This document shows, piece after piece, positions 50,649 through 52,807 of a stretch of DNA of 64,000 bases. The notes beneath the pieces are model-generated. The model saw only the letters and a program-made list of their open reading frames with translations. It ran no database searches and had not been told where the DNA came from. The stretch is from Cytophagales bacterium (lineage in GTDB: Bacteria > Bacteroidota > Bacteroidia > Cytophagales > Spirosomataceae): positions 1 to 64,000 of the forward strand of contig JAAFIU010000001.1 of assembly GCA_013298805.1 (NCBI GenBank), written 5' to 3'. The position numbers and the translations under genes were made by a program. Within the stretch, counting starts at the first letter, position 1. Each line of letters begins with the position of its first letter.

Positions 50649-50698
50649 TTATTATTTGTTACAAAAGTTCTTATTTTTAATTTCTTTTTTATCAAGAC

Positions 50699-50814
50699 GT
50701 GAAGCGGGGGACTCGAACCCCCATAACCCTCAATCCTAAAAAGTTAAATATTTTTTCTAACAGTTCTCTATTCTAAAGCAAAGGCAGCCTTTCTTCACAC
50801 GAGGGTTGCTTCAC
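50699..50814 (-). ncRNA. tRNA-like structure (acceptor stem plus T-arm, no normal D or anticodon arm)
   Basis: On the minus strand, 'gtgaagc' (50814-50808) pairs with 'gcttcac' (50705-50699) as a perfect 7-bp acceptor-like stem. The next seven bases 'aaccctc' pair with 'gagggtt'. Between that helix and the acceptor strand sits a typical T-arm, 'gggggttcgagtccccc'. About 69 nt replace the D and anticodon arms, and no cloverleaf fits. No CCA is encoded. It may be a tRNA-derived RNA, a decayed tRNA or an old integration site. It also lies in the 5' leader of the epimerase gene. Confidence 0.5.
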
Positions 50815-50896
50815 GAATAGCCATTTTTAATCTTCCCATAATCTCTGATTTTAAAAGTTCAATTACAATTACTACTACTGCAAAGAATACAATCAT
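50795..50896 (-). CDS. Possible 33-residue membrane peptide
   Basis: This frame is too short for the ORF track. It starts ATG ATT GTA and encodes a hydrophobic segment 'MIVFFAVVVIVIELLKSEIM' followed by a basic tail. Its last codons overlap the 5' arm of the tRNA-like structure. It may be a real small protein or the end of a decayed gene. Confidence 0.3.
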   Translation of the reverse strand: MIVFFAVVVIVIELLKSEIMGRLKMAIREATLV

Positions 50897-51119
50897 AGCT
50901 AAGTCAGACAAACCATCAGTTAAAATATTAGCTTTATTACATAGGCTCTTTTATATTGTTGATAGTGTATTTATTATTCACAACTAATTCATTTCTCAAA
51001 GTTCTTTGAAGTTCAAGCACATATCCTTTGAGATAATTTTCCTGCAAGGTCTGTCTGAAAATCGTATTTATTCAATTCTTCTTTAGTACAATGTTTACTT
51101 ACAATCAGTTTTTGGTATT
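50897..51119 (-). other. Non-coding or decayed stretch between two membrane ORFs
   Basis: A start-less frame on the minus strand reads 'NTIFRQTLQENYLKGYVLEL' and 'QRTLRNELVVNNKYTINNIK', ending at a TAA at 50937. The composition is protein-like, suggesting gene remains. No other feature is visible. Confidence 0.35.
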
Positions 51120-51410
51120 TCACATATTTAATTTTCCTTCAATCATTTCTGTTTTTTGTTTAGCTTTATTTTTATCTACAATCTTAAAAACTGTGATAGA
51201 GGTCAAAACAGCTAAACAAATTCCAATGATAGTCTCAGTATTCATTTTAAAAAACAATGAAATAATTATTTGTAGAAATGTTGCAATACTATAAAATAAA
51301 ATCATAAAAATATCACCTCCTGACTTATTATGAGCAAATATCAGTAATAACATAAATACAAGCGTGTTAATGGCAAAATGCTTTAGTATATGTAAAATTG
51401 ATTTTTGCAT
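51120..51410 (-). CDS. Small membrane protein of unknown function
   Basis: A 96-residue product from the ATG at 51410 ('MQKSILHILKHF'), with three hydrophobic segments: 'FAINTLVFMLLLIFAH', 'DIFMILFYSIATFLQIIISL' and 'TIIGICLAVLTSITVFKIV'. A lysine-rich tail follows. The track adds 14 residues upstream, which look less likely. It is in a gene-poor stretch between the epimerase and thioredoxin genes, next to apparent gene debris. I do not recognise it. Confidence 0.55.
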   Translation of the reverse strand: MQKSILHILKHFAINTLVFMLLLIFAHNKSGGDIFMILFYSIATFLQIIISLFFKMNTETIIGICLAVLTSITVFKIVDKNKAKQKTEMIEGKLNM

Positions 51411-51484
51411 GATTATAGTATGAAAAGTATTTGAATTTGAGAAATTCATCATATATTCTCAATACCTTTTTGAAAAAATATTTA

Positions 51485-52807
51485 TCATAACTTCCCATCC
51501 TTCATCTTCGCCAATGCTTCTTCGTATTTAAAAGTCAAACCTTTCAAGGTTTTGGCTAAATTTAAGGCTTTTTCTTCGGCGGCAATCGCTTCTGACCTGA
51601 TGCCCATTTTGTACAATAAATGTGCGTAGGTATTCCAATAATCGGGTGTTTCGTCGATCTCGTTGGCTCTTTTTGACCACATGATCGCTTTTTGCAGAAC
51701 GGCTTTTTCGCTTACATTTTTATAAAATTCATCTGCCAAACCATCTAAATCCGACGCAAAGTTAATACTTGCGTAGCGACTATGCAGTTTTTTCATGGCA
51801 TCAAATCTTACTTTCCCAATTTTCAATGAATCTTGTTTCCCTGTACGATACGGCAACATAAACTCTTGAAAATGAGCTAAATTCTGTTTATTCAATTCTT
51901 CTTTTGAAACATTCATCAAATATTTATCGGCTAAATTCTGAGCTGTTTCTATATATTTGGGCGTATTATTCGTGGATTTATAAAACTCCATGCGGTAACG
52001 CTCATTTTGTCGACCTGCTTCAATTGAATTAAGTTTTAGGTTTAAACCTGCCAACTTTTCCAATAAATCTATATTCTTAGTTCTTAAAGCATTACGAAAA
52101 TATTCCATCATGGTAGTAGCAACAGATTCGAGCGTTGAGATGCCATATTTTTTAAAAACCGCCTGATTTTGGAGCAATTCAATCGCCTTGCCGTTCAGTG
52201 TAAATGTATTTTCAGAAAGGAGTTTCAAGGTCTTTTCGGAGGTTTGCTCAGCCGTCGGAATTGCCAATAAATACTGCTCCACCAATTCCCGATTATCCAT
52301 GACCATTGCATGACGTTTATTGATAAAATCCGCCAAGAAATTAGCATCTCTTTTTCCTGCTCGATATTGAGTTTCGTAGTCTTCCAAACGTCCTTCTCGG
52401 TACTGATTCAAAGCATTATCCACCGATTTTAAAAATTCAGACACGGGCATATAACCTGCATCTGTCAATAAAACATTTTGATTTTTATCTGCCCAAACCA
52501 AAAACGGATAAGCACTCACTTCAAATTTACGAGCCAAGTTTGGCCCTTCGCCTTTTTCTGCGTCAATTTTGAAATTGATAAAATTGGCATTCATTTTTTG
52601 AATGACTTCGGGTTTGGAATAAACCTTTTGTTCCAATTGCTTACAAGGGCCGCACCAAGTTGTGAAAAAATCAATAAAAATGGGTTTATTTTGGGCTTTT
52701 GCTTTGGCAACGGTTTCTTGCCAAGAACCTTTTTCAAAATTGATTTCTTGGGCTTGAGTCGAGAGAATCGTGAAGGATAAAAATATGGTTGTGAGGATTT
52801 TTTTCAT
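51485..52807 (-). CDS. Exported thioredoxin-fold protein with helical-repeat C-terminus
   Basis: A 440-residue periplasmic protein with signal 'MKKILTTIFLSFTILSTQAQ'. A thioredoxin domain follows at about 25-135, with active site 'FFTTWCGPCKQLEQKV' and the cis-proline 'VSAYPFLVW'. The remaining 300 residues are helical, and the end ('YWNTYAHLLYKMGIRSEAIA') looks TPR-like. The active cysteines are intact, so disulfide reduction or exchange in the envelope is likely. The partner proteins are unknown. Confidence 0.9.
   Translation of the reverse strand: MKKILTTIFLSFTILSTQAQEINFEKGSWQETVAKAKAQNKPIFIDFFTTWCGPCKQLEQKVYSKPEVIQKMNANFINFKIDAEKGEGPNLARKFEVSAYPFLVWADKNQNVLLTDAGYMPVSEFLKSVDNALNQYREGRLEDYETQYRAGKRDANFLADFINKRHAMVMDNRELVEQYLLAIPTAEQTSEKTLKLLSENTFTLNGKAIELLQNQAVFKKYGISTLESVATTMMEYFRNALRTKNIDLLEKLAGLNLKLNSIEAGRQNERYRMEFYKSTNNTPKYIETAQNLADKYLMNVSKEELNKQNLAHFQEFMLPYRTGKQDSLKIGKVRFDAMKKLHSRYASINFASDLDGLADEFYKNVSEKAVLQKAIMWSKRANEIDETPDYWNTYAHLLYKMGIRSEAIAAEEKALNLAKTLKGLTFKYEEALAKMKDGKL

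Follow-up and report, generated by a model that had tools for sequence, protein, structure and literature searches.

A probable mobile RNA unit in a Cytophagales bacterium that joins a small reading frame to an overlapping tRNA-like 3′ domain

Some plant RNA viruses, and tmRNA, are textbook cases of RNAs with a tRNA-like 3′ end. In the plant-virus type (TYMV), the messenger is continuous with a 3′ tRNA mimic by means of a pseudoknot-type acceptor. Type I toxin mRNAs are not known to carry a tRNA-like 3′ end, and an HDV-like ribozyme needs a joining segment for its catalytic C. We are aware of no mobile unit on a bacterial chromosome that consists of a small gene terminating in a tRNA mimic. 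The yjdF riboswitch is a cis RNA reported to have an overall tRNA shape (PMC9142559). The unit described here differs from it in having no Rfam match and no link to a particular downstream gene.

We analysed a window of 64,000 nucleotides, by which we mean the whole stretch of DNA at its full length. At 50699-50814, its minus strand reads GTGAAGC, AACCCTC, 69 nt, GAGGGTT, AT, T-arm, GCTTCAC and G. An earlier note on this DNA had described a perfect 7-bp acceptor-like stem between GTGAAGC (50814-50808) and GCTTCAC (strand b′, 50705-50699), a canonical T-arm (GGGGG-TTCGAGT-CCCCC, 50722-50706) and an extra 7-bp helix formed by AACCCTC (strand a, 50801-50807) and GAGGGTT (strand a′, 50731-50725), the last separated from the T-arm by AT; every one of these pairings is exact. 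The minimum free energy RNA fold of the window copy (-39.8 kcal/mol, z of -3.1 to -3.7) is the fold described there, with its 14 pairs and the T-arm, and the element's spaced pattern had no match in 100 shuffles. The note had also held that about 69 nt replace the cloverleaf body, and that a tRNAscan/Infernal-type run would yield no full cloverleaf. This is borne out by ARAGORN, which finds no tRNA or tmRNA across the window and no cloverleaf in the homologs tested, and by Rfam, which has no match to the element at gathering level and, at loose thresholds, only a 17-nt local match to the tmRNA T-arm (14 bits). No second copy was found in the same genome.

The arrangement recurs elsewhere. Scanning 84,980 species genomes for the pattern GTGAAGC-N66..96-GGTTCRANYCC-N3-GCTTCAC returned six loci, all in Bacteroidota or Balneolaceae (Cellulophaga, L105; Arenibacter, L106; Balneolaceae, L107; Flavobacteriaceae, L108; Bacteroidales, L109; Flavobacterium, L110), and these align along the whole element, far past what the pattern demands. 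Searching with a covariance model revealed a distant clade, represented first by L112 and then by L117 and L118, and also the clade 1 copy L116; a third search added L129 and L130; L115, L127 and L128 denote the genomes of L107, L108 and L105. The genome searches covered about 1,660 genomes, and carriers make up ~0.3-1.3% of those sampled when true members only are counted. There are about a dozen other copies in all, in Flavobacteriaceae, Balneolaceae, Bacteroidales and further lineages, and this recurrence of the whole arrangement is far stronger than any chance estimate. ARAGORN finds no tRNA in L105-L110, nor in L112 or L115-L118; it identifies three other candidates (L113, L114, L119) as ordinary tRNAs, and a fourth (L132) is a tRNA-like sequence outside the family. 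Viral contigs (IMG/VR patterns), phage records and plasmids gave no match to the unit. Two copies are damaged. L116 (G806:C12:787752-787888), which accompanies an Abi_C gene, is cut inside the T-arm stem with the next gene following directly, a possible recombination point, and L130 (G1430) is decayed in both parts, with a frameshift in its frame, a mutated T-loop (TACGAGT) and a mutated acceptor. Cultivable carriers include Cellulophaga sp. F20128, Arenibacter hampyeongensis JCM 17788 and Flavobacterium salilacus.

Comparison of two diverged clades shows covariation in three helices: a (50801-50807:50725-50731), b (50792-50798:50699-50705) and c (50808-50818:50770-50779). The covariation in relatives that the note had proposed as a check is present: the paired bases are conserved with compensatory changes and the same arrangement recurs, in agreement with its view that chance decay would not yield the 14 complementary bases. 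In a structure-guided alignment, 94.7% of cells are paired across helices a and b and the T-arm, and five pairs, in twelve cells, are changed on both sides, compared with 0-1 such pairs in slid versions of the same helices; only two deep clades are available, so the covariation represents few independent events. Strand a is paired in 100% of cells (three pairs changed on both sides), and the T-arm stem in 96%, its loop being invariant except in the decaying L130. Strand b (GTGAAGA, 50792..50798, minus) is a second copy of the acceptor strand, holds a TGA stop codon, and pairs with b′ with two double compensatory pairs. Hairpin c joins ATTCGTGAAGC (50808..50818, minus), which includes the acceptor 5′ strand of the note, to strand c′ (GCTTTAGAAT, 50770..50779, minus); its inner six pairs are 100% paired, two with double changes, and it takes the form of ATTCGTGAAGC with GCTTTRGAAT in clade 1 and of TAGTTGGGGT with ACTCCAAGCTA in clade 2. 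Helices c and a accept G-U pairs. When a separately built MAFFT alignment was scanned without bias, the two longest covarying helices were b (8 pairs) and c (7 pairs), neither of which the search models contained; helix a belonged to the search model, and its result therefore leans towards that model.

The strands follow one another in the order c-a-b-c′-a′-T-b′, so that a and b cross in a pseudoknot-type arrangement. The alignments indicate that the conserved acceptor partner is the second strand copy b, and that the c:b′ pairing of the note is an alternative fold of one clade. In clade 1 this pairing is perfect over 7 bp and is the predicted minimum-energy fold; in clade 2 it shrinks to GGGG:CCCC, while the second copy forms GGGGAGA:TCTCCCC (7 bp), and the nested fold is not predicted. 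Alternative folds compete in energy. The alternative c:b′ fold in clade 1 suggests a switch, and strand exchange is plausible because strand c is similar to strand b in either clade. The second acceptor copy GTGAAGA, the ATTCGTGAAGC:GCTTTAGAAT pairing and a conserved upstream reading frame had all escaped the first inspection. Beyond the acceptor, the 3′ tail of the window copy (GTCT, 50695..50698, minus) aligns with ACCA, GCCA, ACCT or ACCC of relatives, and only a single close group ends in an exact CCA (ACCA or GCCA). The GT before b is able to pair with A73-C74; such pairing and the narrow distribution of CCA would weaken a role in aminoacylation and make charging uncertain.

The conserved unit is longer than the structure and takes in a reading frame. 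It spans ~255 nt (50695..50950, minus), with homology to relatives from about AAGAGCC to the ACCA-like end, and is bounded by a 5′ motif (AAGAGCCTA, 50942..50950, minus), kept as AAGAGCCT or GTGAGCCT, and by the ACCA-like tail. Within it lies a hydrophobic frame of 51 codons plus TGA (KSLCNKANILTDGLSDLAMIVFFAVVVIVIELLKSEIMGRLKMAIREATLV*, 50795..50950, minus). Across copies, the frame has 51-70 codons (51 in clade 1, 60-70 in clade 2); it runs through strands c and a and stops at the TGA in strand b in clade 1 and just after c′ in L117 and L118. A coding signal is present in this frame only (z of 3.7 for seven sequences and of 5.0 for three diverged sequences, reached in 0/1000 shuffles), the scored frame contains no in-frame stops, and each copy encodes a hydrophobic product, with 19-residue Kyte-Doolittle maxima of 1.8-2.6. 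The copies do not share a start codon: GTG in L117 and L118, a possible TTG in several copies, and no recognisable one in the window copy, where a TAA stop directly precedes the frame. Translation across copies is probable; the frame of the window copy may go untranslated because it lacks a recognisable start codon and has TAA directly before it.

We conclude, with a probability of roughly 0.85, that this is a copy of a mobile, conserved structured RNA whose 3′ domain resembles a tRNA and overlaps a small frame. Searches of an open-access library gave no account of the unit; the subscription literature may differ. As to what it does, we tentatively favour, at somewhat short of even odds, a mobile regulatory or toxin-type defence module in which translation and the tRNA-mimic 3′ end exclude each other, the defence step being the less likely part. 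The RNA's 3′ end would be a tRNA mimic that draws its acceptor strand from within the RNA, which would leave the upstream messenger attached, as in plant-virus tRNA-like ends. The last codons of the frame coincide with strands c, a and, in clade 1, part of b, and a translating ribosome and the folded mimic would therefore be mutually exclusive. Strands c and b would compete for b′, and c would also pair with c′, giving a switch. The weakest step concerns its use, most likely that of a self-contained module linked to phage defence: factors that process or bind tRNAs might act on the mimic and so control synthesis of the small membrane peptide. The strand order a-b-a′-T-b′ with its covariation would fit the plant-virus type if the three-dimensional fold and the continuity of the transcript are as presumed; the unit differs in residing on a bacterial chromosome with no viral genes, in having no sequence or Rfam match, and in conserving CCA only partly. 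With type I toxin mRNAs (hok, txpA) it shares a putative small hydrophobic peptide overlapping a strongly structured mRNA and a mobile context; it differs in that no antisense RNA was identified and toxicity is a candidate property only. If expressed, the unit would represent a new structured-RNA family, a new coupling of translation with tRNA-type processing, and a candidate integron-carried defence component; it can be found with the covariance models from this work.

The neighbourhoods of the copies bear on the defence step. An Abi_C (abortive infection) gene (PF14355) ends directly upstream of seven copies (L105, L106, L107, L108, L116, L129 and L130), and L109, which retains sequence that aligns to the final codons of the Abi_C gene, looks like a remnant. 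As an obligate partner Abi_C was rejected: on the two plasmids examined, its homologs are followed immediately by other genes. In L105, L107, L108, L129 and L130, the pair of Abi_C and unit has GTTGTGC- or GTTGGGC-ATAATTT upstream and TATGCACAAC-type repeats downstream. The L129 locus (L135) has a 19-nt attC-like inverted repeat and a cassette directly after a 376-aa integron-type tyrosine recombinase (L135 4558-5690; NF040815, integron integrase type), whose orientation matches that of the cassette behind it, an arrangement shared with inverted-integrase integrons. Several Abi-linked copies thus qualify as integron gene cassettes, by their boundaries and, in L135, by the attC-like repeat and the integrase; no cassette boundaries are seen at the window copy. 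Elsewhere the type I restriction genes hsdR or hsdM lie directly upstream (hsdR; L117 and L118) or downstream (hsdM; L109), L112 sits behind a truncated integrase, and the window copy and L110 lie between ordinary genes with no recognised defence neighbours. From these contexts, and from its absence in seven congeners and 223 family genomes, we take the unit to be mobile; a link to defence is frequent but not invariable. A more specific version, in which it is a new anti-phage or addiction module, a membrane-peptide messenger with a chromosomally encoded tRNA-mimic 3′ end sensing tRNA-processing or tRNA-damaging activity and spread by integrons with Abi_C and restriction genes, appears unlikely.

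In the main rival, what counts is the tRNA-like domain itself: an RNA of ~100-117 nt would be cut out and matured by RNase P, exonucleases and the CCA enzyme, and the frame would be incidental or a leader. The excised RNA would act as a decoy, sensor or antitoxin for tRNA-targeting nucleases, for example the neighbouring Abi_C protein. The canonical T-arm and acceptor (12 stacked pairs), the ACCA encoded in the Abi-linked group and the seven directly upstream Abi_C genes speak for this account, which we nevertheless consider improbable. The coding signal of the frame counts against it, as does the lack of a CCA common to the clades; a:a′ pairing would hinder RNase P, and units without Abi_C exist.

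Two further accounts are distinctly less probable, and we weight them equally. The structure might act as DNA, as a recombination or attachment site (an attC hairpin, or a tRNA 3′ end of the kind that integrases use) marking the 3′ end of a cassette. Homology does stop near the tRNA-like end, the unit closes several cassettes, an integrase lies near L112 and L135, and L116 is cut inside its T-arm; yet the true integron-like boundaries do not fall within the unit (one is ~20-40 nt past ACCA, the other ~1.1 kb upstream), helices c and a allow G-U pairs as RNA does, and the overlapping frame is coding-like. Or the structure might be a plain 3′ untranslated region, a terminator or stabilising element of the small gene or of an upstream operon, as the strong GC-rich hairpins after the frame and a TTTTT just after the acceptor in L112 would fit; most copies, however, have no U-run, and a terminator needs neither an invariant T-loop nor covarying crossing helices. 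A decayed tRNA gene or chance inverted repeat, to which the likeness of the 3′ half to the genome's own tRNA-Leu(UAG) over 21 nt might point, is scarcely credible against the same anatomy with compensatory changes in about a dozen copies and the lack of a cloverleaf in homologs.

Several specific identities were also rejected. The tmRNA (ssrA, RF00023) has the same acceptor and T-arm, a helix joined 5′ of the T-arm, no D-stem and a frame in the same RNA; the unit differs in having no D-loop and no recognisable conserved tag frame and in being far shorter, and in clade 2 strand a precedes acceptor strand b, a reversed order. The covariance-model scores of 14.1 and 16.4 bits compare with an Rfam threshold of 47, and the host has a full tmRNA of its own along with about 30 tRNAs. 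Possible tag-like frames between the acceptor halves (RKAAFALE* in the window, KNGAFALE in relatives) are not conserved as peptides across clades. The note had likened the feature to the tRNA-like half of tmRNA while denying that it is one; the denial stands, and the likeness in strand order is limited to the alternative fold of clade 1 because the conserved acceptor partner is strand b. The bacterial Y RNA YrlA also has a tRNA-mimicking module with a T-arm; it was set aside because its Ro/Rsr protein (TROVE, PF05731) was not found in the genome (an assembly 87% complete), there is no Rfam match and the context differs. The strand topology is also that of an HDV-like ribozyme; here, however, the T-arm runs straight into b′, which leaves no joining segment. 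A tRNA gene, intact or decayed, would fit the canonical T-arm and 7-bp acceptor, but the full cloverleaf is absent in the window and in homologs; an att remnant of a tRNA is contradicted by the genome having no tRNA of its own with the same acceptor and by the exact 3′ part occurring in no viral contig. A separate tRNA-like run at G000:C429:6638-6716 (L035 1440-1620), with good T-arms and shortened or missing anticodon arms, is not called by ARAGORN and looks like a degenerate tRNA array.

The location of the window copy had been read as the leader of the epimerase gene, and synteny with congeners overturns this, a riboswitch role included. Seven same-genus genomes have the downstream epimerase/dehydratase-like gene at 91-99% identity; they keep both neighbour genes or the epimerase and have no element; the region upstream of the epimerase differs in each of them, none with the T-arm structure, and the other copies of the unit lie beside unrelated genes. 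Because these congeners keep the epimerase without the element, it is not a leader of that gene, and because they keep the neighbour genes, it did not decay in place. The 826-base intergenic query found nothing else in 223 family genomes. Upstream of the unit, at 50980-51460 (minus), lie small broken-looking frames, including a 110-aa hydrophobic ORF, with no Pfam match and no viral-contig relatives. Compared with the congeners (L066-L073), 50650-51485 is an insertion hot spot upstream of the epimerase whose content is different in each: a TGTCATTGCGAG... palindromic repeat in L067 and L069, and small extra genes in L068 and L070.
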